Origin: a virus
Length of the DNA: 26,882 nucleotides
Direction: 5' to 3' (one strand)
IMG/VR virus record: IMGVR_UViG_3300006030_000090
Span: 1-26,882 of that record
Below are positions 1,393 to 18,161 of the stretch, one piece after another. Numbering within the stretch: the stretch's first letter is position 1; the number at the start of each line of letters is the position of its first letter. The notes beneath the pieces are model-generated. The model made no database searches. It saw nothing but the letters and a program-made list of their open reading frames with translations, and was not told the DNA's origin. The position numbers and the translations under genes were made by a program.

Positions 1393-1393
1393 A

Positions 1394-3334: not shown

Positions 3335-3343
3335 GAGATTATT

Positions 3344-4246
3344 ATGCCGTATTCAAATATTTCAGAGCTTCCAGCGTCAGTGAAAGATAAGATTAAGGAC
3401 GAAAAGAAACTTCGTCAGTTTATGCATGTTATTAATAGCAGCATAGAGGCTGGCAAAGATGAATCTACCGCGTTCGCTTATGCTTGGGCTGCTGTGAAGA
3501 AAAACACTCCAATGGATGCCATAGGTGATTTGCCGGATAATGTGAGGGCAAAGATACCAAGCAAAGATGGCAAGGAAATTTTTATGAACGCATACAACTC
3601 TGCCTATACTCATGGGGCAGATGAGTTTGTATGCTTCGCTCGTGGATGGGCTATGCTCGCAGCGATGGGATATACGGCAGATGAACAAGGTGAATGGAGG
3701 CCAATTTTGGAACAGCAAGAGGAAAATATGTTCAAGAGATTTGTTGAATGGATAAAGAAAATGAATACCAAGATTACGATAGAAGTGTGTGATGAGGAAA
3801 AAGAAGATTCGTCCGAAACTGAAATGGAATCCGAAGGTGATGTAGAGAAAAGCGAAGATTTCTCAATCGAGGCCACGATTACAAAGATCGATGATGAGCA
3901 GCGCCTTATTTATGGTTGGGCTTCTATCATCGAGGAGGACGGAAAAACCGTTGTAGATAAGCAGGGTGATGTTATTGACGTTGCCGATCTGGTTACAGCA
4001 GCACATGATTATATGACTGAAAGCCGTGAAGCTCATGAAATGCACGAGGGGGTGAAAAAGGGTGAAACGGTTGAGAGCATCATCTTCACAAAAGAAGTTC
4101 AGGCAGCCCTTGGTATTGATCTGAAGAAAGTAGGTTGGTTTATCTGCCAAAAAATATCGGATGATAAGACATGGGAAGCAATTAAGGCTGGCGATATTAA
4201 GAGCTTCTCAATCGGCGGTTCTGGTAAACGGGTGGCTATTGAGTAG
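3344..4246 (+). CDS. Prohead protease: ChaB-like repeats fused to XkdF-like serine protease
   Basis: The 300-residue protein has two ChaB-like helical units at about 3-53 and 59-119. The second carries the typical 'LPDNVRAKIP' entry, an Ala-Tyr-Asn-Ser-Ala-Tyr centre and a closing Gly-Glu-Trp-Arg-Pro. An acidic linker (about 147-172) leads to an XkdF-like/peptidase S78_2 domain at about 173-300: 'VDKQGDVID' at 204-212, candidate catalytic His231 or His234, and 'KSFSIGG' at 286-292 with candidate catalytic Ser287 or Ser289. Such proteases cleave scaffold and sometimes the capsid protein during head maturation. The start ATG has a clear AGGAG (TAGGAGATTATTATG). It precedes the scaffold-like gene by one gene, as expected for a maturation protease. 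Confidence 0.85.
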   Translation: MPYSNISELPASVKDKIKDEKKLRQFMHVINSSIEAGKDESTAFAYAWAAVKKNTPMDAIGDLPDNVRAKIPSKDGKEIFMNAYNSAYTHGADEFVCFARGWAMLAAMGYTADEQGEWRPILEQQEENMFKRFVEWIKKMNTKITIEVCDEEKEDSSETEMESEGDVEKSEDFSIEATITKIDDEQRLIYGWASIIEEDGKTVVDKQGDVIDVADLVTAAHDYMTESREAHEMHEGVKKGETVESIIFTKEVQAALGIDLKKVGWFICQKISDDKTWEAIKAGDIKSFSIGGSGKRVAIE

Positions 4247-4286
4247 CGCATTATATCAGAAAAACATTTAATTACAACGCTATAAG

Positions 4287-4304
4287 ATACTAATTATTTA
4301 GTAT
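4287..4304. promoter_or_regulatory. AT-rich inverted repeat upstream of the phosphoesterase gene
   Basis: ATACTAA and TTAGTAT form a perfect 7-bp inverted repeat around a 4-base TTAT centre, within the 110-base gap between the protease and phosphoesterase genes. There is no GC-rich stem or T-run, so it is not an intrinsic terminator. It could be an operator or part of an AT-rich promoter region. Function is unproven. Confidence 0.3.
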
Positions 4305-4356
4305 ATCCTTGTTTCAATTAGCGCCGAACAAGAGCGCGACTGAACAGGGAGATTCC

Positions 4357-5517
4357 ATGACATTTGGAGTTGAGCATACACCGGAGAATGAAAAAATTGC
4401 TCTGGTGCGCGAATACTTAGAATCTGGTCTTGGCTACAGAAAATTCTTCGATAAAAATAAAGGCAAAATTCCAGTACGGATACGACAATTCGGTGATTGG
4501 TGTCATAAGTACCGTGATGTAGCCAAGCTAAAGGACGGATACGTTCCAGAAAGACACGAGATTAAAGGTACATCAACCCTCTATGATTCTGAGGGTAATG
4601 TAAAAATGACTTGGGTAAAAACAAGCAAAGAAATAGAGGATGCCAAGGCAGTAATGTTAGCTGCGCTGGATGAAGCTAAAGAAGATTTACCAAAGATCAA
4701 GGATATTAAAAGGCCGAAAAAGTGGGATGAAAACCTTGCTGCCGTTATACCTATCGGTGACGCGCACTTTGGTATGCTGGCATGGCATGAGGAAACTGGC
4801 AATGATTTTGATCTTAATATAGCCAAGCGCGATTTGTGCGGCGCAATGAAATATCTGATAGATAGTGGCCCTGCTTGCGATACGTGCGTTATAGCCAATG
4901 TTGGAGATATGCTTCATTACTCAACAATGAAACCAATCACAGAAGCAAGCGGACATGTCTTGTCAGCTGATAGCCGCGCTCAAAAAATGGTTCGTGTTAC
5001 TGTTTCTGCGCTGCGATTCGCTATAGAGTACGCCGCACAGAAACATAACAAGGTGGTTTGTATCAATAGCTCAGGCAATCATGACGGCCTATTGGCACAT
5101 ATCATGAATATCATGTTGGCTAATATATACGAAGGAAACAAGAGAATCGCTATTATGGATCAGCCTACCAGCAGACATTATTTCCAGCATGGCAAGGTTC
5201 TTATTGGCGTTGTTCATGGACACCAAACAAAAGATCGTGACTTGCCGGGAATCATGGCAACTGAAAGGCCAGAACAGTGGGGGCAAACAAAGCATCGCAC
5301 ATGGATACGCGGACACCACCACCATGACAGCAGGGTTGAATATAATGGCTGTATTGTTGAACAAGTACGCACACTAGCCGCTGGCGATGATTATGCTGTC
5401 AGTAGCGGATTTCTTTCTGGCAGGGATATAAAACAGATTCTATTCCATAAAGAATTTGGAGAGGTAGGCAGGAATATTTGTGGAATTGATTTACTGAGAT
5501 CATTGCAGGTTGAATAG
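4357..5517 (+). CDS. Metallophosphoesterase with N-terminal helical (HTH-like) region
   Basis: The 386-residue protein has all calcineurin-like phosphoesterase motifs in order: Gly-Asp-Ala-His (134-137), Gly-Asp-x-x-His (183-187), Gly-Asn-His-Asp (240-243), His-Gly-His (287-289) and Gly-His-His-His-His (319-323). These coordinate a two-metal centre that hydrolyses phosphoesters; the substrate cannot be read from sequence. Residues 8-55 are predicted helical and resemble the small HTH-like N-terminus of phage phosphoesterases sometimes called DNA repair or exonuclease-like, so a nucleic acid substrate is plausible. I chose ATG 4357 over an in-frame TTG at 4309 because AGGGAG lies just upstream of the ATG. 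The gene has a 110-base leader and its own terminator, making it a small transcription-like unit inside the head operon. Confidence 0.88.
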   Translation: MTFGVEHTPENEKIALVREYLESGLGYRKFFDKNKGKIPVRIRQFGDWCHKYRDVAKLKDGYVPERHEIKGTSTLYDSEGNVKMTWVKTSKEIEDAKAVMLAALDEAKEDLPKIKDIKRPKKWDENLAAVIPIGDAHFGMLAWHEETGNDFDLNIAKRDLCGAMKYLIDSGPACDTCVIANVGDMLHYSTMKPITEASGHVLSADSRAQKMVRVTVSALRFAIEYAAQKHNKVVCINSSGNHDGLLAHIMNIMLANIYEGNKRIAIMDQPTSRHYFQHGKVLIGVVHGHQTKDRDLPGIMATERPEQWGQTKHRTWIRGHHHHDSRVEYNGCIVEQVRTLAAGDDYAVSSGFLSGRDIKQILFHKEFGEVGRNICGIDLLRSLQVE

Positions 5518-5560
5518 GCTATTTACACACAGTATTCTTTCTGTCACAATACTATTACAA

Positions 5561-5580
5561 ATGCCCTTTCGGGCGTTTTA
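5561..5580 (+). terminator. Intrinsic terminator after the phosphoesterase gene
   Basis: ATGCCC and GGGCGT form a 6-bp stem (one T-G pair) around a TTTC loop, followed by TTTTA. It sits 44 bases after the stop codon of the phosphoesterase gene, on the + strand. Confidence 0.7.
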
Positions 5581-5600
5581 CGATGAACATACCGATGAAC
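5580..5600 (+). repeat. Paired CCGATGAAC-type direct repeat, copy 1
   Basis: Two copies of an ACGATGAAC/ACCGATGAAC motif stand 12 bases apart, directly after the terminator and about 41 bases before the scaffold gene. Similar pairs occur at 13079 and 18133. The ATGs inside are followed quickly by stops and do not start a gene. Confidence 0.45.
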
Positions 5601-5641
5601 AAAAAAACAGGCTGTAAGTCTGTGTAACGATTATTATTGGT

Positions 5642-6457
5642 ATGAAACGTAAAACAAAACTAACCAAATTAAAAATTACCGAAGTGTCCGGCGTAGATAA
5701 TCCTGCGAATCCGGGCGCTCATATTGCTTTTTGGAAACGTGGAACTGACACCAACGGAGAGAACGATATGGATGTACAAGAGCTAGCTAAGAAACTGGAA
5801 GAACTTACGGCGCAAAACGCAGAGCTTTCAGCGATGGCAAAAATGTCCGATGCCGAGAAAGAGTTCATGGCAAAAATGAAGGACGAAGATAAAAAAGAAT
5901 TTATGGCTATGGATGCTGAAAAGCGGAAAGAAACCATGAAGAAATCTGACGAATCGGAAGAAGCTAAAAAGGCTACTGCCGCCGCAGATAGTGAAACCCA
6001 AGTGGAGAAACAAACAATGTCCGATAAAGAAACTGAATCGGTTTCCAAGGCAGACTTTGAAGCGGTTCAAAAAGCTAATAAGGAACTGGCAGAGAAGGTT
6101 GCTAAAATGGAAGCTGACAAGGCTTACGATGCTTTTATTACTAAAGCATCCAAGCAAGTACCGTCACTTGCATCTGAGGCTAAAGCAGATTTCGCAAAAG
6201 CTCTCTTTGCTATGCCGCAAGACCAGCAAGATGCTGTGATTAAAGAACTGGTAGCTGCCGAAAAGATCAAAACTGAATACATGATCGAAAAAGGCACATC
6301 TGCCCGTAACGATGGTGGCGCATCTGAGCAGCTCGAAAAGCTGACCAAAGGCCACATGGAAGCAAACAAAGTATCGTACAGCGATGCAATGCTTGCAGTA
6401 ACTTCAACCACCGAAGGCGCTGCTCTCTATAAGCAAACGCTGGCTGGCTCTAACTAA
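5642..6457 (+). CDS. Putative scaffold / capsid assembly protein
   Basis: The 271-residue protein begins with a basic stretch and the signature 'KITEVSGVDNPANPGAHI' (about 11-28), a motif found at the start of many phage protease/scaffold proteins. The rest is highly charged, Lys/Glu/Ala-rich and predicted coiled coil (about 43-110 and 128-165), with a helical C-terminus. This composition, and its place before the decoration and major capsid genes, fits an internal scaffold removed by the protease encoded two genes upstream. Two in-frame ATGs have their own purine-rich leaders: residue 43 (base 5768, CGGAGAG upstream) and residue 126 (base 6017, GTGGAG upstream), so shorter products are possible. 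The upstream start is kept because it includes the conserved motif, although its RBS is weak. Confidence 0.75.
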   Translation: MKRKTKLTKLKITEVSGVDNPANPGAHIAFWKRGTDTNGENDMDVQELAKKLEELTAQNAELSAMAKMSDAEKEFMAKMKDEDKKEFMAMDAEKRKETMKKSDESEEAKKATAAADSETQVEKQTMSDKETESVSKADFEAVQKANKELAEKVAKMEADKAYDAFITKASKQVPSLASEAKADFAKALFAMPQDQQDAVIKELVAAEKIKTEYMIEKGTSARNDGGASEQLEKLTKGHMEANKVSYSDAMLAVTSTTEGAALYKQTLAGSN

Positions 6458-6469
6458 GAGGTATAACAC

Positions 6470-6865
6470 ATGACTCTCGCATTTGAAGAAGCACTGCGTT
6501 GCATCTCGCTTCCGGCTAACGCTGATCTCTCCACGAAGCAGTATTTCTTCGTAAAGATCACCAATAGTTCCGGCACTGGCCGGGCTGCTGTTGCTGGCGA
6601 TGGAGAACACGCTGTTGGCGTACTACAGAACAAACCTGACGCTGCCAACGAAGTCGCGACTGTCGCTATCAGTGGCGTTTCCAAGGTCAGCGCTGGTGGT
6701 ACGATCACGGCTGGTCAGCCTGTAGCATCTGATGCTGCTGGCGAAGCTGTGGCCGCTGCTACTGGTGACATCATCCTTGGTACAGCTTTGCTGTCCGCTG
6801 ATGATGGTGATCTGGTTCCGGTTCTGCTGGATGCTCGTAACGATCTGTCGAATAACAACGTGTAA
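6470..6865 (+). CDS. Capsid decoration / cement protein (DUF2190-like)
   Basis: The 131-residue protein is rich in Ala, Gly, Val and Asp and has the repeating short-strand pattern of DUF2190-type capsid decoration proteins: 'VKITNSSGTGRAAVAGDGEHAVGV', then 'VSKVSAGGTITAGQPVASD', then 'GTALLSADDGDLVPVLL'. These small proteins bind the outside of HK97-fold capsids and stabilise them. It starts at ATG 6470 with GAGG upstream and sits between scaffold and major capsid genes, the usual place. Codon choice is strongly biased toward CTG, GGT, GCT and CGT, as in the capsid gene, consistent with high expression. No hydrophobic segment is present. Confidence 0.85.
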   Translation: MTLAFEEALRCISLPANADLSTKQYFFVKITNSSGTGRAAVAGDGEHAVGVLQNKPDAANEVATVAISGVSKVSAGGTITAGQPVASDAAGEAVAAATGDIILGTALLSADDGDLVPVLLDARNDLSNNNV

Positions 6866-6880
6866 TAAGGAGAACTAACC

Positions 6881-7876
6881 ATGCCTAACCCGACAAGATC
6901 AGACGTTCACGTTAACAGGCCGCTTACGAATATCGCATTGGATTTTACTCAGTCGCAAGACAAGTTTGTTTCCTCGCGTATCTTCCCGAACGTGCCTGTT
7001 AAGAATCGCTCTGATAGCTACTTCACCATTGATCGTGGTGATTTCAACCGTAATCAGGCTCGCCTTCGCGCTCCTGGTACTGAATCTGCTGGTAACGGAT
7101 ATGATGTATCGACTGCAACGTATGCTTGCGATGTTGTAGCGTTCCACAAGGACGTTGACGATCAAATTCGCGCCAACACAGACGCTCCGTTGATGCCCGA
7201 TATGAGCGCAACGAAGCTGGTTACGACCCAACTTTTGATCTATCGTGAAAAAGATTGGGTAACGAACTACTTCGCTGGCGGTATCTGGACTATAGACTAT
7301 GATGGTAACTCAACTGGCCCGACTGGTGCTACGAACGAAGTTTACTATTGGAGTGACTATACGAACTCCGATCCGATCAGAGATGTTCGCACAGTTTGTA
7401 CGTCAGTACAGGAATCGACTGGCTACCGTCCTAACGTGATGGTAGTTGGTCGCGCCGTTCTTGATAAGCTACTGGATCACCCAGATGTAATTGATCGTGT
7501 AAAATACGGTCAATCCAGCGGTAATGTTGCTATGGCTAACAAACAAATCCTTGCCCAACTTTTTGATGTAGAGCGCATTGAAGTAATGAGCTCAATCGAA
7601 AATACGGCAGATGAAGGCCAGGCGAACAGCCATAGCTTTATCGGTGGGAAAAAAGCCCTGCTGGTTTACGCTCCGGATGCTCCTAGCATCGATACTCCGT
7701 CTGCTGGCTATACGTTTAGCTGGACTGGCTACACAGGTGCTACGCAGAACGGTATCCGCATCAGCAAGCTCCGTATGGAGCATCTGAAATCTGATCGTGT
7801 TGAGGGTGAAATTGCCTTCGATCACAAACTGGTTTCCGCTGATCTTGGCGCTTTTTTCGACACAGTGATTGCGTAA
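6881..7876 (+). CDS. Major capsid protein
   Basis: The 331-residue protein has the features of an HK97-fold major capsid protein of the unprocessed, short N-arm type. It opens 'PTRSDVHVNRPLTNIALDFTQ', followed by 'FVSSRIFPNVPVKNRSDSYF' and a central 'REKDWVTNYF' helix. The region about 185-215 ('GYRPNVMVVGRAVLDKLLDH', then 'VIDRVKYG') is a recurrent capsid-protein pattern. The gene has a very good Shine-Dalgarno (AAGGAG) before ATG 6881, strong codon bias, and a strong terminator 17 bases after its stop. It assembles the icosahedral shell and follows its decoration gene directly. No long N-terminal delta domain is present, which agrees with a separately encoded scaffold. Confidence 0.92.
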   Translation: MPNPTRSDVHVNRPLTNIALDFTQSQDKFVSSRIFPNVPVKNRSDSYFTIDRGDFNRNQARLRAPGTESAGNGYDVSTATYACDVVAFHKDVDDQIRANTDAPLMPDMSATKLVTTQLLIYREKDWVTNYFAGGIWTIDYDGNSTGPTGATNEVYYWSDYTNSDPIRDVRTVCTSVQESTGYRPNVMVVGRAVLDKLLDHPDVIDRVKYGQSSGNVAMANKQILAQLFDVERIEVMSSIENTADEGQANSHSFIGGKKALLVYAPDAPSIDTPSAGYTFSWTGYTGATQNGIRISKLRMEHLKSDRVEGEIAFDHKLVSADLGAFFDTVIA

Positions 7877-7961: not shown

Positions 7962-8426
7962 ATGGCGCGATACAGTCAATCTTTTTTCGATATTACTCAA
8001 CCGTTATTTGTCAGAAAAGAATTTGCTGGTAATAACAGGATTTGGTTGCCTGGTATGCTATTCGATTGGAAGCATTTCAAAATCGCCCCGCAACGTGTAA
8101 GGGCGTTATTCAGATCATCCTATATATGCCATGCAGCACAAGAATCTCTAGATGTTGAGGTGGTAATTACTAACTCAGAGCCAGAAAATCAAGACCATCA
8201 AATTAAGACAGACGATAATAAAGAACCAATCTCAAAGCAAACTAAATACGAAATCCGTCAAGTCGGCGGGCCATATTACGATGTAATTTCACCTGACGGA
8301 AAAACCGTAAATCACAAATCACTACATAAGAGCAAAGCAGAAAGTTTTGCCGCGAAGTTGAACAGTGGAGTTAATACCGATGAAGCCTCAACCACAGAAC
8401 TTGCCGGAGATACTGCAAACGGATGA
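7962..8426 (+). CDS. Unknown protein directly after the capsid terminator
   Basis: The 154-residue protein starts at ATG 7962 with GAGAGGG seven bases upstream. Its first half has many aromatics (Trp36, then a second 'FDWKHF') and the string 'RVRALFRSSYICHAA', which looks like a short folded domain I cannot name. A charged, Gln/Asn/Asp-rich linker (about 68-95) leads to a small beta-like C-terminal unit, 'YEIRQVGGPYYDVISPDGK', with a following Lys/Ser helix. The last 47 bases overlap the next gene. Function unknown. Short proteins just downstream of a major capsid gene are often head-tail joining or capsid accessory proteins, but no motif proves that here. Confidence 0.75.
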   Translation: MARYSQSFFDITQPLFVRKEFAGNNRIWLPGMLFDWKHFKIAPQRVRALFRSSYICHAAQESLDVEVVITNSEPENQDHQIKTDDNKEPISKQTKYEIRQVGGPYYDVISPDGKTVNHKSLHKSKAESFAAKLNSGVNTDEASTTELAGDTANG

Positions 8427-9015
8427 AATATATGTCCTGTTCGGTGGGCCATCTCTAAAAAATTTCGATCTATCAAGACTTAATAGCAAAACCGTACTGG
8501 CTTGCAATAAGTGTGCTGAGATGTATCCGGCTCAGGTCGTTATCAGTATTGATCCAACGTATATCAATACCAGATGTAAATTCCTACGTGATTACCCTGG
8601 ATATGTTTCTCTTGGATATAGAGCGACAGAATTTGGTGAGAATCAAAAACCTAACGATGCTGTGATAGGTGGTATAGATCCTGACTATCTATATTGGCAC
8701 GATAAGCGCTTTCCTGATCGTATGTCCACAATACCTAGTACGTTGTACGGACAGCATACCGGACATGCAGCGATAAATTTCCTGATGTTGCAGGGCTTCA
8801 AAACAATTCATGCCCTTGGACTAGACCTTAATGTTGCTGGTCATTGGCATGGTGGATATACGCACAGCAGGCAGCATAAAGAATGGCTGTTGAATTGGGC
8901 AGCTCATATTGATGGCTGTAAGCATCAGTTGGATGATGCTGGAATGAGGATTATTAATTATAATCAGAATAGTGCGGTGCGAAATTATGAGTTCGCATCG
9001 CTTGATAGTATATAG
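8380..9015 (+). CDS. MptE/DUF115-like 'GGPS' protein 1 (glycan-related)
   Basis: The 211-residue protein carries the hallmarks of the DUF115/6-hydroxymethylpterin pyrophosphokinase MptE-like superfamily, which includes Maf-type flagellin glycosyltransferases: 'GGPSLKN' at 22-28 after a beta strand, 'SIDPT' at 56-60, 'GHAAINFL' at 128-135 and 'ALGLDL' at 145-150. The layout matches the protein at 12392. In such folds the Gly-Gly-Pro-Ser loop contacts a nucleotide or nucleotide-sugar phosphate. I chose ATG 8380 because GGAG lies nine bases upstream; a GTG at 8365 is also in frame. It overlaps the previous gene by 47 bases. Likely a sugar transfer or activation step; substrate not determinable. 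Confidence 0.72.
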   Translation: MKPQPQNLPEILQTDEIYVLFGGPSLKNFDLSRLNSKTVLACNKCAEMYPAQVVISIDPTYINTRCKFLRDYPGYVSLGYRATEFGENQKPNDAVIGGIDPDYLYWHDKRFPDRMSTIPSTLYGQHTGHAAINFLMLQGFKTIHALGLDLNVAGHWHGGYTHSRQHKEWLLNWAAHIDGCKHQLDDAGMRIINYNQNSAVRNYEFASLDSI

Positions 9016-9212
9016 GGGGAGGAACTCGACTCCTTTCTTGGGCGCGGCAGAACGTCCATCAATGTTGCAGATGTGGATTGGAACGATCCCCCAAACTGTT
9101 TTATTGTTCTAGTCCATCAAAAGGTGCTGTTCCTTTAAAAGCATTTAGCACCAAATTTGCGAAAAATGGGAGCGCCCCCTGCCAAAGTGGGGGCATTTAA
9201 ATAGGAGCGAAA
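9016..9212 (+). other. 197-base structured gap between DUF115-like 1 and a small ORF
   Basis: No convincing gene is present. Three potential pairings are visible: GGGGGA (9016-9021) with TCCCCC about 65 bases later, GGTGCT (9123-9128) with AGCACC (9147-9152), and GCCCCC (9174-9179) with GGGGGC (9189-9194) followed by ATTTA. The last resembles a weak terminator or attenuator 18 bases before the ATG at 9213. It is the longest gene-free stretch in the window. It could be a regulatory leader or small RNA, or simply spacer DNA. Confidence 0.4.
9174..9198 (+). terminator. Weak terminator- or attenuator-like hairpin
   Basis: A 6-bp all-GC stem with a 9-base loop is followed by ATTTAA rather than a full T-run. 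It lies directly upstream of the RBS of the small gene at 9213, so it could lower read-through into the island. Confidence 0.35.
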
Positions 9213-9416
9213 ATGAGTATTGATGATTTAGCGAAGCAACTACCAGAAGATTGTGTATGGTATCTTGCCAAATGTCATAAAGATGATATGCAAGGAAAAC
9301 ATTACGCTGAGATGACAATTCGTGTTGGGAGTTCTGTTAATATGGAATTTTGTTATTCAGATACAGCATATGGAGCCATGTCTGGATTGGTAAACAAGGT
9401 ACTAAGTAAAAGATAG
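9213..9416 (+). CDS. Small unknown protein at the head of the sulfotransferase run
   Basis: The 67-residue protein starts with ATG behind an excellent AGGAG (AATAGGAGCGAAAATG) and stops one base before the sulfotransferase start, so the two are probably translationally coupled. It is a mixed alpha/beta protein with several Met and Cys residues ('WYLAKCHKDDMQGKHYAEMTI') and a C-terminal helix. There is no signal peptide or membrane span. The good RBS and tight spacing make it a real gene. No family is recognised. Confidence 0.7.
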   Translation: MSIDDLAKQLPEDCVWYLAKCHKDDMQGKHYAEMTIRVGSSVNMEFCYSDTAYGAMSGLVNKVLSKR

Positions 9417-9417
9417 A

Positions 9418-9969
9418 ATGATAATTAACCTACCAGATTTAAATGCTGTTTTTTTCTGTCCGCAGAAGGTTGCAAGCACGTCAATCAAGCAAGCGATTCT
9501 AAGGTCATTTGATGTGCCTGTTAAGGATGGAAAGAAATGGGAGAGGGATCATTCAATCAGCATTTCCGAGATAGAAGATGAGGATGTATTTGGATTCGTA
9601 AGAAATCCATTTGATAGACTGGTATCGTGCTATCACAATCAATGTATTAGCGAAAATAGATACGATCTTGGTAAGAGATGTAATTTCCATGATTTCGTGA
9701 TCTATGTTGTCGGCCAAAATCAAGACGAAGCAGATAAGCATTTTAAGCCACTGAGTAAGACAATACCGAATCATGTTACATTTATTGGCAGGTTTGAATC
9801 TCTACAGAGTGACTGGTCTTTTATAAGGTCACGCCTTCCTATGCTTTCACCACTAAAGCACGAAAATAAGACTAAAAACAGAAAGCACTGGTCTAAATAT
9901 TACGATTCCAGCACCTTAACGCTTGTCTATGAATACTATAAAAGTGACTTTGAAAGGTTTAATTACTGA
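9418..9969 (+). CDS. Sulfotransferase (PAPS-dependent, Sulfotransfer_2-like)
   Basis: The 183-residue protein has both PAPS-binding signatures in canonical order. The 5'-phosphosulfate loop is 'PQKVASTSIKQAI' at 15-27, and the 3'-phosphate site is 'FVRNPFDRLVSCY' at 60-72. Later 'FIGRFESLQSDW' (122-133) and a C-terminal 'YYDSSTLTLVYEYYKSDF' helix are typical of carbohydrate sulfotransferases of the chondroitin/heparan and bacterial Nod-factor type. The expected reaction is transfer of sulfate from PAPS to a sugar hydroxyl; PAPS would come from the host. There is no membrane anchor, so it should act in the cytoplasm. It is compact (183 residues against 230-300 in many homologues) but holds both motifs. 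It sits between a small ORF and a glycosyltransferase, suggesting the acceptor is a glycan made by its neighbours. Confidence 0.85.
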   Translation: MIINLPDLNAVFFCPQKVASTSIKQAILRSFDVPVKDGKKWERDHSISISEIEDEDVFGFVRNPFDRLVSCYHNQCISENRYDLGKRCNFHDFVIYVVGQNQDEADKHFKPLSKTIPNHVTFIGRFESLQSDWSFIRSRLPMLSPLKHENKTKNRKHWSKYYDSSTLTLVYEYYKSDFERFNY

Positions 9970-9970
9970 T

Positions 9971-10645
9971 ATGGCATATCCGCATATAATTGGTGAATAT
10001 GAAACACTTTCTGCCATAAAAGGTGGCATGTCCATTGCAAGATACGGAGATGGAGAATTTAATCTTGCTGGTTTTAGAAAGTGTGTGTCACAGGAGGCTG
10101 ATAGAAAGTTACAGGCAGAGTTACAACAGATATTGCAAAAGGGATCTAATGGCAAATTGGCTGTGGCTGTACCTCCTCTTGATAACACTGGGCGACTGCC
10201 AGAGGGAAAAAAACGTGATTTCTGGACAAGGCAGGCGAAGTCAGTTTCAAAGCACCTAAATCCAAAAGCTAAATATTATAGCAGTTTTATTACAAGATCA
10301 GATAATGCCCCTTGGATCGACACGCCGGAATTCTGGAATGGCCTTGTTGATCTGTGGCGCGACAAAGATATAACTCTTGTTATAGGCTCTGAAAGGAGTC
10401 TGTGCGAACGTAATATATCTGAGGCGAAAAGTGTAAAATATGTTCGTGGGTTGTACAGAGATTCGTACAGAGAGATTGACAGGGTAGAAAAAGAGATACG
10501 AGATGCTGGAAATAAAACCGTTATTCTATGCCTTGGCGCAACAGCAACGGTTTTGGCTTATAGATTGTGTAATGATTTTCATGCTCTCGATCTCGGTCAT
10601 ATCGGAATGAAAAGAATGTTTATGAAGGGGCGCGGCCTTGTATAA
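9971..10645 (+). CDS. GT-D-fold glycosyltransferase (DUF1792-like)
   Basis: The 224-residue protein has the GT-D family signature 'SIARYGDGEF' (21-30), whose Asp-x-Glu element is the metal or nucleotide-sugar site, and the conserved 'DLGHIG' (207-212) near the end. In between are a nucleotide-sugar-like 'ITLVIGSERSLCERN' strand-loop and a 'VILCLGATATVLAYRL' segment. GT-D enzymes add sugars to serine-rich repeat glycoproteins in Gram-positive bacteria; phage members are also seen. I chose ATG 9971 over an upstream in-frame start because it follows the sulfotransferase stop by one base and the conserved domain begins there. It overlaps the next gene by eight bases. The donor sugar and acceptor are unknown. 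Confidence 0.82.
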   Translation: MAYPHIIGEYETLSAIKGGMSIARYGDGEFNLAGFRKCVSQEADRKLQAELQQILQKGSNGKLAVAVPPLDNTGRLPEGKKRDFWTRQAKSVSKHLNPKAKYYSSFITRSDNAPWIDTPEFWNGLVDLWRDKDITLVIGSERSLCERNISEAKSVKYVRGLYRDSYREIDRVEKEIRDAGNKTVILCLGATATVLAYRLCNDFHALDLGHIGMKRMFMKGRGLV

Positions 10646-11276
10646 CGTAGTATTCAATTCTCAATATAATCTATGGGTTCCAGCGGACGAACCAAGGCTC
10701 CTGCAAAAAGATTGGTTTGAAAAAACCATGAGGACAGTCGGACGTGATACAGATTTCGTCATCAGACGAAGTAAACATAGAGTCTGCGTTCAGGCTGGTG
10801 CTTGCTTTGGCATTTGGCCACAGCACTTGTCAAAGACATACGAAACTGTAATTACATTTGAGCCAGACCCAGTTTTGTTTGAATGCGTACGGCTAAATAC
10901 AAATGCGCTAAAAGTCATGGCTATGAATTCTGCTGTAGGAGCTAAGCAAGATTCTGTGCTTTTCTATAGAGCAAAGCATGGAACCAGCACAACTGTTCCC
11001 AATCCAAATAACACACCAACCGAAACGTACAAGGTTCATCAGGTGACAATTGATAGCCTTGATCTAGAGGTGTGTGACGCAATATTTCTTGATATTGAGC
11101 GTGGAGAGCCAGATGCATTGCGCGGAGCGGCTGAAACTATTAAAAAATTCAAGCCACCAATTCAGGTTGAGATGCACGATAAAAGCAAGGATGAAATTCA
11201 TTCAGTTTTAACTGGAATGGGATATGTTATGGCCGAAAGAGTTGGAAGTAGAGATATGGTATATCTCCATGCATGA
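10638..11276 (+). CDS. FkbM-type SAM-dependent methyltransferase
   Basis: The 212-residue protein matches the FkbM methyltransferase fold: motif I region 'VCVQAGACFGIWPQHL' (49-64), acidic SAM-ribose site 'FEPDP' (74-78), and 'IFLDIERGEPDALRGA' (149-164), which corresponds to the usual Lys-Ile-Asp-Val-Glu-Gly motif. FkbM family members O-methylate sugars and polyketides. Motif I is unusual: Gln52 stands where Asp is common ('VDVGAN.G'). The start is TTG 10638, eight bases inside the previous gene, with GAAGGGG seven bases upstream. Gene order suggests it methylates a sugar placed by the GT-D enzyme. Its stop overlaps the next start by eight bases. Confidence 0.85.
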   Translation: MYNVVFNSQYNLWVPADEPRLLQKDWFEKTMRTVGRDTDFVIRRSKHRVCVQAGACFGIWPQHLSKTYETVITFEPDPVLFECVRLNTNALKVMAMNSAVGAKQDSVLFYRAKHGTSTTVPNPNNTPTETYKVHQVTIDSLDLEVCDAIFLDIERGEPDALRGAAETIKKFKPPIQVEMHDKSKDEIHSVLTGMGYVMAERVGSRDMVYLHA

Positions 11277-11880
11277 TTTTGTAATTGGTGATGATGAGTA
11301 TAAATATCTCTACATTCAATGCGGGGATATAGCGCACATCAATGATCGTAAAAATTGGCACACAGCATACAACAGGCGTATGAACAGATTGTACGAATCT
11401 CTTAAACCATTCCTCCCATTGCAATGTAATAGCATACTTGATATCGGCTCTGGGCTTGGTGGGGTTGATGTCCTGCTATCAAAGCACTACGCAGGAAGTG
11501 CGAGCGTGGAGCTTCTTGATGGTGAGAGCGATCTTCCAGTGGTAAATAAACACGCGGAAACATTTTCAAACCATGCTGTCATGTCTGGATTTCTGTCAAA
11601 AAACGGTGTCAAAAACTTCTCATTATCTTCTCCGCAAAAATACGACATTATACCACGCGATTTGATAGTTTCTTTTTCGGCATACTGCTTCCACATACCA
11701 GTTGATAAGTACCTGAAATTAATAGTAGAATCATCAAACGATGATACTGTATGTATATTCCGAATCAGGGATGGCAAGAATTATCTTGAAGTGCTTAAAC
11801 AATATTTTCCAAACGTAAGAATTGTCAACGAGCAAAAAAAGGGCGACATCATATGTCTTTCAAAAAGTACGGCTTTATAA
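11269..11880 (+). CDS. Class I SAM-dependent methyltransferase A
   Basis: The 203-residue protein has motif I 'ILDIGSGLGGVDVLLSK' at 56-72 and a following acidic loop ('VELLDGESD') consistent with SAM binding. The middle is a Rossmann-like alternation with 'DLIVSFSAYCFHIP' as a motif IV-like strand, and 'CIFRIRDGKNYLEVL' near the end. I chose ATG 11269 over in-frame codons further upstream because it overlaps the FkbM stop by eight bases, like its neighbours. It contains no DNA methyltransferase catalytic motif (no Asn/Asp-Pro-Pro-Tyr, no Pro-Cys), so a small molecule or sugar target is more likely. It overlaps the following methyltransferase by 28 bases. Confidence 0.8.
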   Translation: MHDFVIGDDEYKYLYIQCGDIAHINDRKNWHTAYNRRMNRLYESLKPFLPLQCNSILDIGSGLGGVDVLLSKHYAGSASVELLDGESDLPVVNKHAETFSNHAVMSGFLSKNGVKNFSLSSPQKYDIIPRDLIVSFSAYCFHIPVDKYLKLIVESSNDDTVCIFRIRDGKNYLEVLKQYFPNVRIVNEQKKGDIICLSKSTAL

Positions 11881-12425
11881 GTGATGAATACAGGGTGCTA
11901 AACATAAAGCACCACATAAAGAAGCGCGATGAGCAAAAGCCTTGGGGCAATGATGGGAAGCACCACAGGAAACAGGTATCATCATTTTGTGATGAGCTTG
12001 TAGCAAAAACAGTTCTTGATTATGGTTGTGGCAACGGAAGTCTTAAAAGGTCTATGGAAGAAAACTACGGTAAAAAATACACGATCACAGAATATGATCC
12101 ATGTATCATAGGCAAGTGTGAGAAACGACCAGATAAATCTGATGTCGTGGTGTGTACAGACGTAATTGAACACGTTGAGATGGAATTTTTGAATAAGTTC
12201 ATCTACGAAATTTATAATAGATGCCTGAAGGGTTTGTATCTGACAATCTCTACGAGAGAAGCAAATGAGTTTTTACCGGATGGAACAAACGCCCATAGGA
12301 TTGTCAGGAGTTCAGAGTGGTGGATCAATAGACTTACAGAAATGAAGATTCCGATTGATCGTGCAGACATTAGAGATAAAGGGGTAACGCTATGGATCAA
12401 GAAACCTCAACCAAAAGAGATGTAA
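11853..12425 (+). CDS. Class I SAM-dependent methyltransferase B (Methyltransf_23-like)
   Basis: The 190-residue protein has motif I 'VLDYGCGNGSLKRSM' (54-68) and motif III/IV 'DVVVCTDVIEHVEMEFL' (97-113), the Asp-Val-Ile-Glu-His signature of Methyltransf_23/Ubie-like enzymes. The C-terminal 'LYLTISTREANEFLPDGTNAH' is close to small phage methyltransferases of glycan clusters. No target-recognition domain is present. It starts at ATG 11853, with AAAGGG upstream inside the previous gene, and overlaps the following gene by 34 bases. Like the two before it, it probably methylates a sugar or metabolite. Having three distinct methyltransferases in a row suggests several positions on one glycan, or different sugars. 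Confidence 0.84.
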   Translation: MSFKKYGFISDEYRVLNIKHHIKKRDEQKPWGNDGKHHRKQVSSFCDELVAKTVLDYGCGNGSLKRSMEENYGKKYTITEYDPCIIGKCEKRPDKSDVVVCTDVIEHVEMEFLNKFIYEIYNRCLKGLYLTISTREANEFLPDGTNAHRIVRSSEWWINRLTEMKIPIDRADIRDKGVTLWIKKPQPKEM

Positions 12426-13036
12426 TTATCATAGCTGGTGGCCCGTCAGTTAAAGACATTCCAGCAGCAACTCTAAAAGATTACGGGTATGTCATTGGCG
12501 TAAACGAAAGCGCGATCTTGTTTCCTTGTGATGAGGCTTTGTCTATGGACAGGCTTTGGATGGAAGCAAGGTATGAGCAACTACAGTGGATGGAGATACC
12601 GACATTTTTTAGGAGGTGCGCCTGGAAGGTTGGTATTGAGTGGCCAAATCTTACTCAGTTTAATGGTGATATAAAAGCTAGTGGACTATCAGATAGCAGA
12701 GATACTCTTTTTGGCAGGAACAGTGGCCAATGTGCTATCAACAGGGCGTATCACATAGAGCCAGATCGTATCTTTCTTTTTGGTTTCGATATGAAGTCAG
12801 ATAACAAATCTCATTATTTCTATGACCAGTCAGACCTGGTCGAAAAGAAGCGTGGGTTGACTAACAAGAAAATCAAGCCACCAACCGACACAAGATATTT
12901 GGAATGGATGCCAGCGTTCAAATCAATAGCCAGTAAACTTTCCGAAAGCGGAATAAAAACATATAACGTATATCCAGATAGTGCGGTACAGGATTTTGAA
13001 AAAATATCATGGAGCGATTTTAAGAGGATGTTTTGA
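12392..13036 (+). CDS. MptE/DUF115-like 'GGPS' protein 2 (glycan-related)
   Basis: The 214-residue protein has the same motif order as the protein at 8380: 'IIIAGGPSVKD' (12-22), 'SMDR' (51-54), 'SGQCAINRA' (111-119) and 'IFLFGFDM' (127-134). The two are clearly the same fold, but sequence identity looks low, so they are divergent paralogues or independent acquisitions. In the superfamily these motifs sit around a nucleotide or nucleotide-sugar pocket. ATG 12392 has AAAGGGG upstream and lies inside the previous gene by 34 bases. It probably acts on the same glycan pathway as the neighbours; no substrate can be named. Confidence 0.74.
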   Translation: MDQETSTKRDVIIIAGGPSVKDIPAATLKDYGYVIGVNESAILFPCDEALSMDRLWMEARYEQLQWMEIPTFFRRCAWKVGIEWPNLTQFNGDIKASGLSDSRDTLFGRNSGQCAINRAYHIEPDRIFLFGFDMKSDNKSHYFYDQSDLVEKKRGLTNKKIKPPTDTRYLEWMPAFKSIASKLSESGIKTYNVYPDSAVQDFEKISWSDFKRMF

Positions 13037-13078
13037 TTGACCGGATTGGGTTTTCGTGTGAAGATTCAGTATCTAGAA

Positions 13079-13099
13079 ACCGATGGAGTTACCGATGAA
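13079..13099 (+). repeat. Paired CCGATG-type direct repeat, copy 2
   Basis: ACCGATGGA and ACCGATGAA stand 12 bases apart. The second copy contains the ATG of the lipoprotein gene and the first supplies its GGAG. Compare the pairs at 5580 and 18133. Confidence 0.45.
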
Positions 13100-13187
13100 A
13101 TTTAGTGATCTTATGCAGGCATTTCTACTGCTTTGTTTTATTCTTTCCGTATCAGGATGCACAGCTAGAATTTGGGGTTTTATCTAA
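13095..13187 (+). CDS. Minute lipoprotein (30 residues)
   Basis: ATG 13095 has GGAG seven bases upstream and opens a 30-codon frame whose stop TAA ends directly before the next ATG at 13188. The product starts Met-Lys, has a hydrophobic core 'MQAFLLLCFILSVSG' at 7-21 and a lipobox Val-Ser-Gly-Cys with Cys22. After signal peptidase II cleavage only nine residues (Cys-Thr-Ala-Arg-Ile-Trp-Gly-Phe-Ile) would remain on the lipid anchor. Candidates are a superinfection-exclusion or receptor-blocking lipoprotein (as T5 Llp is in principle), a small envelope peptide, or a Rz1-like spanin, which is less likely as no Rz gene surrounds it. It was found by eye, being shorter than usual gene-calling limits. 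Confidence 0.65.
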   Translation: MKFSDLMQAFLLLCFILSVSGCTARIWGFI

Positions 13188-13979
13188 ATGAGCGATCATT
13201 ATTATGTAATTTACCCGTACTACGAGAATCCAAAAATGCTAGAAAAGCAAGTTGAGAATTGGAACCGTTTTAGTGGGGATTTGCAGAAAAAAATTACATT
13301 TATCTTGGTTGATGATTCAAGTCCGATATATCCAGCGGCAGAAATATTCAAGGAATTACGTCACAGAAAAATTCTGTTCAGGGTAAAAGAAAACATTCCG
13401 TGGGCGCAACATCACGCAAGGAATGTTGGTGCGCTTGAGGCTGGAAAGCACTCAAGAAAAAACTACGATATTGCTAATCCGTGGTTGCTGATGTCTGATA
13501 TGGACATCATCATTACACCTGAAGCGATGAATGACATTGTTGAGAAATGTACTGACGCAACACGCTATCATACATTTGAGAGAAAATTTATTGGTGGAGC
13601 GAGGGAGCCAAAATATCATTGCAATACATTCCTAGTGAAGCATGATAACTACTGGTCTATCAACGGATATGACTGCGATTACTGCGGAACGTATGGCGGT
13701 GATGGAAGGTTCCTACAGCAACTTGAGCAGGTGGCTCCACAACTTCATCACGGATACTCAAGTAGGCATTTAAAATCATATGTTGAGTGTACTGGTGATC
13801 CAATCACTTTATTCGGATACGAATCGAATGTCGTATCTGATGCAAACACTACTGAGTGGGAACGTAAGAATAGCGAGTTCCACGAAAAATACAGGGCGAT
13901 ATTGGCAAATAAGAAACAACGTGGAGATGAAAGAAGTAAAAATCCTATTAGGTGGGGGTATGAGGAGGTTGTTCTGTGA
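13188..13979 (+). CDS. Family 2 (GT-A fold) glycosyltransferase
   Basis: The 263-residue protein shows a GT2 layout: 'VIYPYYENPKMLEKQVENW' near the start, the nucleotide-binding 'ITFILVDDSSP' (36-46), and the Asp-x-Asp motif 'LMSDMDIII' (101-109). A C-terminal acceptor/catalytic region 'WSINGYDCDYCGTYGGDGRF' (156-175) corresponds to the Trp-x-x-x-Asn-Gly-Tyr-Asp-x-x-Tyr pattern of bacterial GT2 enzymes. Both metal-binding aspartates are present. It is short and soluble, with no membrane segment, so it should use a nucleotide sugar in the cytoplasm. The start lies right after the lipoprotein stop and it ends in a GTGA junction with the next gene. Confidence 0.85.
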   Translation: MSDHYYVIYPYYENPKMLEKQVENWNRFSGDLQKKITFILVDDSSPIYPAAEIFKELRHRKILFRVKENIPWAQHHARNVGALEAGKHSRKNYDIANPWLLMSDMDIIITPEAMNDIVEKCTDATRYHTFERKFIGGAREPKYHCNTFLVKHDNYWSINGYDCDYCGTYGGDGRFLQQLEQVAPQLHHGYSSRHLKSYVECTGDPITLFGYESNVVSDANTTEWERKNSEFHEKYRAILANKKQRGDERSKNPIRWGYEEVVL

Positions 13980-15019
13980 CACTTGTGGTCATTGAATCTC
14001 CATACGCCGGAGATGTAAAAACACACACCGAATACGCGAACAGGGCGATTAGGGATTCTATCAATCGCGGTGAGCATCCGTTTGCCAGTCATATTCTTTA
14101 CACACAAGCATTGCAAGATTGTGATCCAGATCAGAGAAAGACTGGTATCAACTGCGGATACTCTTGGGGAAAACACGCTAAAAAAATTGCCGTTTACACA
14201 GACTACGGAATTTCAAATGGTATGCAGCAGGCTATGGGGTATTACAACAAAATTGGCATACCGATTGAATACAGAAAGATAGGGAAAAATATGGAGAAAC
14301 CGATTTCTATCGTTGTATTCAAGTGGAAGAAAGATGGATACAGAACGAAATTTACAGCCGATCATGTCAATCGCTTCTTTAGAATGATTGACCGACATGT
14401 TACAGTACCACATAGAAAAATTTGTATTACTGATGATTTTAGTGGAATTGATGACCGCATTGAAAAGATAAAATTGTGGCCGAATCCGTGTCCAAGGTAC
14501 GGTAACGAAATGAAGCCGAATTGTTTTTATCGGCTAAGAATGTTCGATCCTGAAATTAAGGAAATTGTCGGTGATAAATTTTGCTGGTTTGATCTTGACG
14601 CTGTTATTGTTGGGAACATAGATCACATTTTAACAGATCAGTCTGATTTCAGGATGTGGAGGGTAGATGGTGAGTTCATGCCATGTAACGGATCACTTTG
14701 CCTGCATACAGTTGGAACTAGGAGTCAATTCTGGAAGGAGTTCAGGGCTGATAAGGTTCACCCCGTAACTGGTCTTAAAGCGGCTGGATTCATTGGTAGC
14801 GATCAGGCTTACCTTGCAACAAAAATGACTCAGATTGAAAAAGACAATGGATTTGGTAAGGCCGATGGAATCTATAGCTATCGCTGTCACCTGAAAAAGC
14901 GCGGTATAAAAGATATACCGGAGGACTGTAAGATACTGTTTTTTCATGGCTTACAAAATCCTTGGGACGATGATATAGTGAAGAATAACCAATGGGCAAA
15001 GGAGTATATGTCGATATGA
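13976..15019 (+). CDS. DUF7768 domain fused to a phage glycosyltransferase
   Basis: The 347-residue protein has two parts. Residues 1-103 match DUF7768 (a nucleoside 2-deoxyribosyltransferase-like fold): 'IESPYAGDVKTHTEYANRA', 'GEHPFASHILYTQ', 'QRKTGINCGYSWG' and 'VYTDYGISNGMQQAM'. Residues 108-347 are a GT-like domain with 'WFDLDAVIVGNI' (204-215, Asp-x-Asp), 'PCNGSLCLH' (236-244), 'GSDQAYL' (274-280) and 'LFFHG' (321-325), the pattern of GT8-like enzymes in phages. GTG 13976 has a near-perfect GAGGAGG upstream. In-frame ATG 14291 (residue 106) has AGGG six bases upstream, so the GT could also be made alone. The fusion suggests the N-terminal domain supplies or processes a nucleotide or sugar-nucleotide. 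Confidence 0.82.
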   Translation: MTLVVIESPYAGDVKTHTEYANRAIRDSINRGEHPFASHILYTQALQDCDPDQRKTGINCGYSWGKHAKKIAVYTDYGISNGMQQAMGYYNKIGIPIEYRKIGKNMEKPISIVVFKWKKDGYRTKFTADHVNRFFRMIDRHVTVPHRKICITDDFSGIDDRIEKIKLWPNPCPRYGNEMKPNCFYRLRMFDPEIKEIVGDKFCWFDLDAVIVGNIDHILTDQSDFRMWRVDGEFMPCNGSLCLHTVGTRSQFWKEFRADKVHPVTGLKAAGFIGSDQAYLATKMTQIEKDNGFGKADGIYSYRCHLKKRGIKDIPEDCKILFFHGLQNPWDDDIVKNNQWAKEYMSI

Positions 15020-15171
15020 TTAAGTTTCCATTTAAGATTGTTAAACGTAACTATATTTCAGATATGGAAGCGGAGATTGATTATTTAGAGATATTGGTTT
15101 TAAGTCTGCGTAGTAAGCTAGAAAAAGCAGAGAAAGTAAAAAAAGACAATAAGAAAGTTAAAAAGAAATGA
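15016..15171 (+). CDS. Small basic coiled-coil protein
   Basis: The 51-residue ORF overlaps the previous stop as ATGA (15016-15019) and ends as ATGA with the next gene (15168-15171). Residues 14-41 look like an amphipathic coiled coil ('YISDMEAEIDYLEILVLSL'), and the last 15 residues are mostly Lys. It is too short for most gene callers. Coupling on both sides makes it credible as the last gene of the island, but function is unknown. Confidence 0.65.
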   Translation: MIKFPFKIVKRNYISDMEAEIDYLEILVLSLRSKLEKAEKVKKDNKKVKKK

Positions 15172-15608
15172 GCTGGACGTTTGATGATGCTGACATATCC
15201 ACAGACCTTGCAAAAGTAAGAGTCTTAATTGGTGATGTTGATACATCTGATCAGCTTCTATCTGATGAGATGATTAATTACTTCCTAACCGTTGATGATA
15301 ACGTATTTGGCGCTGCATCGTTGGCGGCAAAGTCTGTACAGGCTAAATTCGCAAGGCTGGCAGATACTACCATTGAGGGGGTGTCAGTCAAATACACGCA
15401 GAAAGCTGTTGCCTATGGTGATCTTGCTTCAGACTTGGCATCTCAGGCGCTTGACAATGACCTTCCAACCCCATCTGTATTCGGCGTTTCCAAGGATGCT
15501 ATCAGAGATCAACGTGATGATGATGATCGTGTCGGTGAGCGTTTCTATCAAGACCAATTTAGCAATCCACCGGAAGGGTCAATTAAGGTTGACGGACAGG
15601 ATGTGTGA
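15168..15608 (+). CDS. Head-tail adaptor (HK97 gp6-like connector)
   Basis: The 146-residue, mostly helical protein starts Met-Ser-Trp and shows 'VRVLIGDVDTSDQLLSDEMINYFL' followed by 'NVFGAASLAAKSVQAKFARLAD', the recurrent pattern of phage head-tail adaptor proteins (gp6/SPP1 gp15-type). The acidic 'DQRDDDDRVGERF' C-terminal segment is also common in them. These form a dodecameric ring under the portal that extends the DNA channel and accepts the stopper. It restores the canonical head-to-tail gene order after the accessory island. Confidence 0.87.
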   Translation: MSWTFDDADISTDLAKVRVLIGDVDTSDQLLSDEMINYFLTVDDNVFGAASLAAKSVQAKFARLADTTIEGVSVKYTQKAVAYGDLASDLASQALDNDLPTPSVFGVSKDAIRDQRDDDDRVGERFYQDQFSNPPEGSIKVDGQDV

Positions 15609-15880
15609 TGCTTAGAAACGATGTGCTTGATACAGCAAAGGGTCTTATTAATGGTGAGCGTCAAGAGCAATACGGCTCTCCGCAGGCTAATTTTCAGCGT
15701 ATTGCAGATATGTGGAACGCATATTTGCCAGATCATGTAAGAATTTGTGCCGCAGACGTTGCGGTGATGATGACTCTTGTTAAGGTCGCAAGACTCTCGA
15801 ATACAATCAGTCATGCCGATTCGTTTGTGGATGCCGCTGGATACCTTGCGCTTGGAGCAGAACTGTCAGAGGCCAAGTAA
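15608..15880 (+). CDS. DUF6378-like protein
   Basis: The 90-residue helical protein has the DUF6378 pattern: 'GERQEQYGSPQANFQRIADMW' (18-38), then 'DVAVMMTLVKVARLS' and 'HADSFVDAAGYLALG'. Related small all-alpha proteins occur in many phages and are sometimes compared with MazG-like nucleotide pyrophosphohydrolases, but their activity is not established. I chose ATG 15608, which overlaps the adaptor stop; a GTG at 15605 is also possible. It ends one base before the head closure gene, so it is embedded in the connector operon. Confidence 0.8.
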   Translation: MLRNDVLDTAKGLINGERQEQYGSPQANFQRIADMWNAYLPDHVRICAADVAVMMTLVKVARLSNTISHADSFVDAAGYLALGAELSEAK

Positions 15881-15881
15881 T

Positions 15882-16229
15882 ATGGCTATAGAAAAACACG
15901 CAACAAAACTTATAAATGATCTGGGGAAAGACCTGACACTGAGAAAGGTGACTGAGGGAACATATTCACCTAGCACCGGAGCCATTTCTGGGCAGACGAC
16001 CACAGATACAGACATCAAAGGTCTACTGCTATCATACAAAGACAAAGACTTCGAGGGAACACTTATCCAGCGTGGCGACAGGAAGATACTGATTCGAGCA
16101 TCAGATTCTGTTGTGCCAGAGGCGCAGGATATTGTGCTTGATAGCACAATTCAATATAGGCTGGTAGATGTAAGACAGGTTGAGGAATCTGGTGATGATG
16201 TGGTCTATATCTGCCAAGGTAGGCAGTGA
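15882..16229 (+). CDS. Head closure / stopper-like protein
   Basis: The 115-residue protein is beta-rich with 'GKDLTLRKVTEGTYSPSTGAI', then 'DIKGLLLSYKDKDFEGTLIQ', 'DRKILIRAS' and 'YRLVDVRQVEESGDDVVYICQ'. This strand pattern is that of small head-closure proteins (SPP1 gp16/HK97 gp7 group) that seal the portal after DNA packaging. It starts at ATG 15882, one base after the DUF6378 stop, and overlaps the next gene as ATGA. A longer in-frame stretch upstream is a shadow of the previous gene and was left out. Confidence 0.8.
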   Translation: MAIEKHATKLINDLGKDLTLRKVTEGTYSPSTGAISGQTTTDTDIKGLLLSYKDKDFEGTLIQRGDRKILIRASDSVVPEAQDIVLDSTIQYRLVDVRQVEESGDDVVYICQGRQ

Positions 16230-16657
16230 TGCCAGAAAACGAATTTAGCGCAGATATATCTAGGTTTGTGGCTAAGGTAACAACCAATACTGATAAGTTC
16301 ATGTTTGCGCTGTGCCAGGATATTGGTGAGGCGGTTGTACTCAACACTCCGGTTGATATAGGACACCTAAGAAGGTCTTGGACTGCCCAGATCGGATCAC
16401 CAGACCTTGACTGGCAAGCAGGAGAACCAAGGCCAAGCGTGGCGGTTTCAAATCCATCTGGTGATGCTATGTCTAGGATTATAACCAAGATACTTGGTGT
16501 TAAGGGCGGCGATGTCGTATATTATAATAATAACGTGCATTACGGCCCATATGTTGAGTTTGGAACGCAGCATCAGCAGGCGCAACACTTTGTTCAGGAT
16601 GCCGTTTCAAAGATTGATTCGATAGCTGAAAACGTAGCGAGTAAATTTAAGGTATGA
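16229..16657 (+). CDS. HK97 gp10-like neck/tail protein
   Basis: The 142-residue protein has the HK97-gp10-like signature: 'VLNTPVDIGHLRRSWTAQIG' (35-54) and the C-terminal 'VHYGPYVEFGTQHQQAQHF' region, whose Tyr-x-x-Tyr-Val-Glu-Phe-Gly-Thr motif is the most conserved part of the family. These proteins act at the head-tail interface during tail joining. Start ATG 16229 overlaps the stop of the head closure gene; a GTG three bases before is in frame. Confidence 0.9.
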   Translation: MPENEFSADISRFVAKVTTNTDKFMFALCQDIGEAVVLNTPVDIGHLRRSWTAQIGSPDLDWQAGEPRPSVAVSNPSGDAMSRIITKILGVKGGDVVYYNNNVHYGPYVEFGTQHQQAQHFVQDAVSKIDSIAENVASKFKV

Positions 16658-17082
16658 GTGATTCGCAGGACATACGCAGGGCTTTAGAGGGGCGGCTTAA
16701 TGGAGGCTCCTATACCGGAATTACTAACTCAACTGACATAGCTTGGGAGAATGTGCAATTTAACCCAACCGGAAAGTCCGCATGGTTGAGGCCAAAGTTA
16801 AGCATCACGGAAATCATACCAGCCACAGCCGATTCGACAGGGACGGAAAAATGGACTGGCGTTTTCTATGTTGATGCTTTTGTGAAAGAGAATACGGGCG
16901 GGACTGCCGTATTAGATGATCTTGCTGATGACGTTAAGGCAAGGTTTACAAAAGGATTACAGATCACTGAAAATAGTGAAATAATTAATATCAGATACTC
17001 ACAGAGGTATGGGTTCGTAAACGATTCGCCGTGGATATTTTGCCCATTGGCTTTTACTTTTTACGCATATATTACGCCTTGA
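16654..17082 (+). CDS. Tail terminator protein (gpU-like)
   Basis: The 142-residue protein starts with 'DIRRALEGRLNG' and continues with a beta-rich body, including 'SAWLRPKLSITEIIPATADST' and 'KWTGVFYVDAFV', and a helix 'AVLDDLADDVKARF'. This is the lambda gpU/DUF4128-like tail terminator pattern; a hexamer caps the tail tube and sets where the head attaches. It overlaps the gp10-like gene by ATGA and precedes the tail tube gene, as in classical siphovirus order. Confidence 0.85.
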   Translation: MSDSQDIRRALEGRLNGGSYTGITNSTDIAWENVQFNPTGKSAWLRPKLSITEIIPATADSTGTEKWTGVFYVDAFVKENTGGTAVLDDLADDVKARFTKGLQITENSEIINIRYSQRYGFVNDSPWIFCPLAFTFYAYITP

Positions 17083-17091
17083 CAAACCCTA

Positions 17092-17121
17092 TTGTGCCAC
17101 ATGTATCGCGCATGGTATTAT
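17092..17121 (+). promoter_or_regulatory. Candidate sigma70-type promoter for the tail tube gene (extended -10)
   Basis: TTGTGC (17092-17097) and TATTAT (17116-17121) are 18 bases apart, and TGG directly before the -10 gives an extended -10 (TGnTATTAT). It lies in the 77-base gap before the highly expressed tail tube gene. The -35 is poor, so the call rests on the -10. A consensus TTGACA at 17079-17084 lacks a good partner. Confidence 0.38.
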
Positions 17122-17159
17122 TCAATATAACAACCAGACCCAACAGGGGGAGAATTTAA

Positions 17160-18068: not shown

Positions 18069-18071
18069 ATT

Positions 18072-18129: not shown

Positions 18130-18132
18130 CAA

Positions 18133-18153: not shown

Positions 18154-18161
18154 ATAAGACT

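Follow-up and report, generated by a model that had tools for sequence, protein, structure and literature searches.

The open reading frame at positions 9418-9969 of the window (the whole 26,882-nucleotide stretch of viral DNA analyzed here) almost certainly encodes a PAPS sulfotransferase, and it belongs to a glycan cassette found repeatedly next to capsid genes in many phages. This membership was the main clue missed by the initial annotation. We hold with no better than even confidence that the enzyme, expressed late, sulfates the glycan of this cassette, and that it does so more probably on the virion, namely the capsid, than on the host surface. Taken by itself, action on the cassette's glycan is likely.

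The reading frame lies on the plus strand, starts with ATG and is open over 183 codons to its stop, which is included in the coordinates. The product scores against Pfam PF03567 (Sulfotransfer_2) with E = 1.1e-19 and 72 bits (cut-off 22), with residues 16-183 aligned to profile positions 17-251 of 252, and is the sole PF03567 match within the 26,882-base record. It also matches PHROG 3347, ‘Galactose-3-O-sulfotransferase’, at E = 1.2e-11. Given the scores against PF03567 and PHROG 3347, the sulfotransferase motifs are not due to chance. The 5′-phosphosulfate-binding loop (9457-9486, plus strand) spans residues 14-23, CPQKVASTSI, and includes K17 and S22, while the 3′-phosphate-binding motif (9595-9633, plus strand) spans residues 60-72, FVRNPFDRLVSCY, and includes R62 and S70. 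Conservation of these motifs was counted over 59 viral sequences, consisting of the window protein and 58 viral relatives. In the 5′ loop, K17 is present in 57 of the 59 and S22 in 55. In the 3′-phosphate motif, RNPxxRxxSxY, the window protein has R62, P64, S70 and Y72, which are found in 59, 59, 57 and 45 of the sequences, respectively. E127 is invariant. Gln16 replaces the consensus Pro before the Lys of the 5′ loop, as it does in a Gloeothece relative. H108 occurs in 43/59 sequences, and it is a guess that this residue is the catalytic base. The family matches and the conserved motif residues thus agree with the initial annotation, which had proposed a PAPS sulfotransferase with both cofactor sites intact. 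The same annotation had regarded 183 residues as compact; viral relatives range from ~172 to 267 residues, so this length is not exceptional. It had also taken the lack of a membrane anchor to indicate a cytoplasmic acceptor. No anchor is seen, but this says little about the acceptor.

Phage structural genes lie on both flanks within one contig, with head genes at 424-7876 and connector and tail genes at 15168-25700 of the window, and for this reason the description of the sulfotransferase as phage-encoded holds. The left border of the cassette is the major capsid protein (MCP) gene (6881-7876; phrog_1005, E = 7.9e-84), and its right border is formed by head closure Hc1, neck and tail terminator genes (15777-17082; phrog_161, phrog_169 and phrog_179), all on the plus strand. 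The capsid protein is 49% identical to that of Pseudomonas phages RSP/KPP23 and 48% identical to that of Roseobacter phage RDJL Phi 2. In both KPP23 and the Roseobacter phage a gene of 585-651 bp directly follows the capsid gene, and short connector-region genes come next; in the window, a same-strand cassette of ~6.7 kb has been inserted and separates the MCP gene from the head-tail connectors. Since the right border recurs in three IMG/VR contigs, two at 100% DNA identity and the third at 76%, an assembly accident at this border is unlikely. Within the head block of the window, the gene at 4309-5517 belongs to the ‘DNA repair exonuclease’ family (phrog_704, E = 3e-102). In contig L091, whose capsid protein is 55% identical, a phrog_704 homologue is found after the capsid gene and adjoins a phrog_4603-like gene.

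The cassette genes are all on the plus strand and begin with a sialyltransferase-like glycosyltransferase (GT) gene (8365-9015; phrog_4603, E = 9.7e-13). A 67-residue reading frame (9213-9416) that matches no Pfam or PHROG family has the lowest GC content among the genes compared (36%); its stop falls one base before the sulfotransferase ATG. One base past the sulfotransferase end is the ATG of a GT-D fold glycosyltransferase gene (9971-10645; PF08759, E = 2.3e-26), which has a longer reading frame from a TTG at 9923. Then come an FkbM methyltransferase gene (10638-11276; PF05050, E = 1.7e-12; phrog_8156, E = 6.7e-24), a gene with a weak class I methyltransferase match under the Pfam cut-off (11224-11880), whose homologue in the L202 cassette is 41% identical, and a class I methyltransferase gene (11853-12425; PF13489, E = 3.3e-9; phrog_24759, E = 2.6e-20). 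A second sialyltransferase-like GT gene (12392-13036; phrog_4603, E = 2.6e-16) is followed by a GT2-like gene (13188-13979), whose PF00535 match (E = 0.001) is under the cut-off and which has homologues in cassettes of the same type. The last gene (13976-15019) is a fusion of DUF7768 (PF24963, E = 6.6e-29) with a phrog_1962 glycosyltransferase (E = 3e-15), the GT part of which aligns to Tetraselmis viridis virus S20 and L202. The in-frame fusion itself is also present in L283-L285 and is not found in S20 or L202. DUF7768 overlaps a PHROG named nucleoside 2-deoxyribosyltransferase. The phage glycosyltransferase genes of the window include those for GT-D, the phrog_1962 GT and the two phrog_4603 proteins.

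Related cassettes were gathered by scanning for relatives of the GT-D protein (180 found) and of the phrog_1962 protein (261 found). The resulting set comprised 110 distinct contigs with at least three cassette gene types, and counts include the window. The fetched stretch of 46 of the 110 shows both a head gene on the upstream side and, on the downstream side, a connector or tail gene; in 44 of these 46 the cassette lies wholly between the two. Because the contigs are related to one another to varying degrees, the 44 should not be read as independent events. The contigs were chosen by their sugar genes and not by head genes, so the head-connector position was not built in by the selection. 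The order GT-D, phrog_4603, GT2, phrog_1962 is kept in 33 of the 38 contigs that carry all four. A mostly order-conserved GT/methyltransferase cassette (8365-15019 in the window; L171, L202 and L203-L360) is present in dozens of IMG/VR contigs whose capsid types differ. Its position between capsid and connector genes does not hold in every case, as two of the 46 deviate (L298 and L252). L265 has its cassette upstream, not downstream, of MuF and an E-type MCP gene. In L206 and L218 the cassette adjoins terminase (TerL) and portal genes of another type. No head gene was recognized in 34 contigs, and the two of these examined by PHROGs adjoin terminase and portal/adaptor genes of another type. 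L215 has a tail protein a few kb downstream of its cassette.

Two cassettes resemble that of the window. Between its capsid gene and Hc1, Tetraselmis viridis virus S20 (NC_020840) carries GT-D, phrog_4603, methyltransferase, FkbM, GT2 and phrog_1962 genes, and IMG/VR 3300012925_000023 has nearly the gene order of the window, flanked by an HK97-type capsid gene on one side and a head-tail adaptor on the other. At the same position between head and connector genes, both carry homologous GT-D (43-48%), GT, methyltransferase and phrog_4603 genes. However, their MCP is phrog_10 (HK97-type) while that of the window is phrog_1005, and neither has a sulfotransferase or a detected DUF7768 fusion, both of which the window has. 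Among the other cassettes examined, only L213 has a sulfotransferase, placed within the cassette just before FkbM. With a single further cassette carrying one, sulfate is not needed for the core role of the cassette. We found no paper describing this glycan cassette in a literature search of incomplete coverage.

We also looked for relatives of the sulfotransferase outside this cassette type. No second copy turned up in IMG/VR when a portion of the gene was searched as exact DNA, and a single-protein scan of IMG/VR with the sulfotransferase gave no match, so that profiles were required; for the genome collection, a profile built from six sequences proved too diverse. The profile scan of IMG/VR showed at least 364 stretches encoding relatives, some on contigs that may be those of eukaryotic viruses. 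In tblastn against 50,697 named phage records the one match was Phage CBW1004C-Prop1, at 27% identity. A viral structure library contained the same fold in Ralstonia phage phiRSL1 (B2ZYD5), Roseobacter phage SIO1 gp5.1, several cyanophages, including Prochlorococcus phage P-SSM7, and giant viruses; phage S-T4 has it as well. Phage sulfotransferases have already been listed among auxiliary genes (PMC10580990, PMC8290583), and the first of these papers calls their function unclear. In view of the IMG/VR relatives, the named phages with this fold and these papers, the initial description of the gene as unusual for a phage fails. The window protein falls together with L045, L015 and L016 in an approximate tree, at modest support values of 0.73 and 0.86. 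Large viral contigs L018 (IMGVR_UViG_3300025809_002164), L066 and L025 contain tandem arrays of 5 to 9 sulfotransferase-like reading frames in ~12.5 kb.

The window sulfotransferase belongs to a capsid-linked subset of the viral genes. This subset emerged from a search that started with sulfotransferases, independently of the cassette, and spans several phages whose capsid proteins are unrelated. The sulfotransferase follows the MCP gene in L008 and L014 (phrog_24667 capsid) and in CBW1004C-Prop1 (phrog_334 capsid); in L045 and L053 it follows a phrog_10 capsid gene and is preceded by a phrog_4603 gene. In CBW1004C-Prop1 the sulfotransferase, gp47, lies between MCP and connector as in the window, but unlike the window this slot has no multi-gene glycan cassette. 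Portal or TerL genes adjoin or are near the sulfotransferase in L013, L009 and L016. A large remaining share of viral sulfotransferases has no recognized head gene nearby, and pooled neighbor scans gave further sulfotransferases, sugar epimerases, methyltransferases and terminases. Consequently, a capsid linkage of all phage sulfotransferases was rejected, and the linkage is limited to a subset.

From these observations we infer that the protein is catalytically active as a soluble PAPS-dependent sulfotransferase, which would move sulfate from host-made PAPS to a sugar hydroxyl. The acceptor would be a methylated oligosaccharide made by the neighboring glycosyltransferases and methyltransferases. 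In keeping with this, cellular relatives on plasmids are found amid glycosyltransferases, flippases and methyltransferases. The gene would be expressed late and the glycan made during particle assembly, and virions would then exit the cell bearing a negatively charged sulfated glycan. Because the cassette is in the head block between MCP and connectors, a virion protein, probably the capsid, would be the most likely final target. Phage glycosyltransferases are described as glycosylating capsid and tail-tube proteins (Freeman et al. 2023, cited in PMC12363180), and according to PMC12363180 the mycobacteriophages Che8, Corndog and Myrna modify capsid and tail-tube proteins with their own glycosyltransferases, a possible functional parallel. 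On gene position and this precedent, we consider it an evenly balanced judgement that the cassette glycan ends on the virion. We know of no report of methylation or sulfation in the virion glycosylation of Che8, Corndog or Myrna. The position in the head block could also be simply a tolerated insertion site, with the products acting elsewhere. The wider proposal, of a mobile, order-conserved glycan cassette at the capsid locus across unrelated capsid families together with a methylated and sulfated virion glycan in this phage, is put forward only tentatively.

O-antigen conversion genes alter the host surface and block re-adsorption by sister phages. The cassette and its sulfotransferase might similarly act on a surface polysaccharide of the host, either in lysogens or at a late stage of infection, with the same effect on sister phages. 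Cellular relatives of the sulfotransferase occur in surface polysaccharide clusters, and a GtrB-like O-antigen conversion gene lies near the viral sulfotransferase of L012. By Pfam and PHROG, however, the cassette has no identified acyltransferase, flippase, GtrA-like membrane protein or polymerase. The lack of an identified flippase, acyltransferase or GtrA-like protein disfavors modification of the host surface, as does the recurrence of the capsid-side position across head types. We regard this explanation as rather unlikely, but it is the leading alternative.

In order to examine the fold, an AlphaFold (AF2) model of the 183-residue protein was used (pLDDT 90.5, pTM 0.86). The model has the PAPS sulfotransferase fold. 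In Foldseek against the PDB the listed matches were sulfotransferase-fold proteins, the best at E 0.015, which is weak as an E-value, and probability 0.99. Upon VIA re-alignment, heparan sulfate 6-O-sulfotransferase gave Z 9.8 over 168 residues (rmsd 3.9) and heparan sulfate 2-O-sulfotransferase gave Z 9.5 over 160 residues (rmsd 3.6), and all 50 VIA matches listed are sulfotransferase-fold enzymes. The heparan sulfate 6-O- and 2-O-sulfotransferases (Sulfotransfer_2) are thus the nearest solved folds. The window enzyme shares their fold and both PAPS motifs but is viral, ~183 residues long and free of a membrane anchor. At the sequence level, phmmer of the sulfotransferase against the PDB gave chance matches only, and the 59-sequence profile reached cytosolic sulfotransferases at E 0.0025-0.0054. 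The predicted sulfotransferase fold is firm. It does not fix the acceptor, because cytosolic small-molecule sulfotransferases match the model at Z ~9, close behind the heparan sulfate enzymes. With the latter leading the fold matches and a glycosyltransferase cassette around the gene, the carbohydrate acceptor of the initial annotation is plausible. The matches to cytosolic enzymes leave a small chance that the protein acts on a target outside the cassette, such as tyrosine, a small molecule or a host lipid, but its sequence family is Sulfotransfer_2 and its recognized neighbors are all sugar or methyl transferases.

A role of the cassette enzymes in making a hypermodified DNA base or nucleotide, with sulfate as one component, is very improbable. 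Base-modification systems with glycosyltransferases and sulfotransferases have been mentioned for phages (PMC10829341), and the overlap of DUF7768 with a deoxyribosyltransferase PHROG fits this idea. However, the scanned window proteins revealed neither a base hydroxylase nor a TGT nor a thymidylate synthase-like gene, in a record that leaves much of the phage genome outside it since genomes of relatives are ~63 kb, and the genes preceding the cassette are for the capsid, not for replication. Hardly any weight is given to a recently acquired, unused or decaying gene, since the low GC content of the sulfotransferase (37% against 48% for the MCP, the lowest in the cassette after its 67-residue neighbor) and its absence from nearly all other cassettes are set against an intact reading frame, retention of all conserved motif residues and a start and stop tightly packed within the cassette.

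Sulfotransferases as an enzyme type were already known in phages, and the capsid-side cassette setting suggests a purpose for one of them. The recurrent capsid-side position, beside different head proteins and in a conserved cassette, makes the role of a phage sulfotransferase testable on virions. If sulfation of the cassette glycan on the virion is correct, environmental phage particles would have a surface charge and a glycan chemistry that the phage itself controls.
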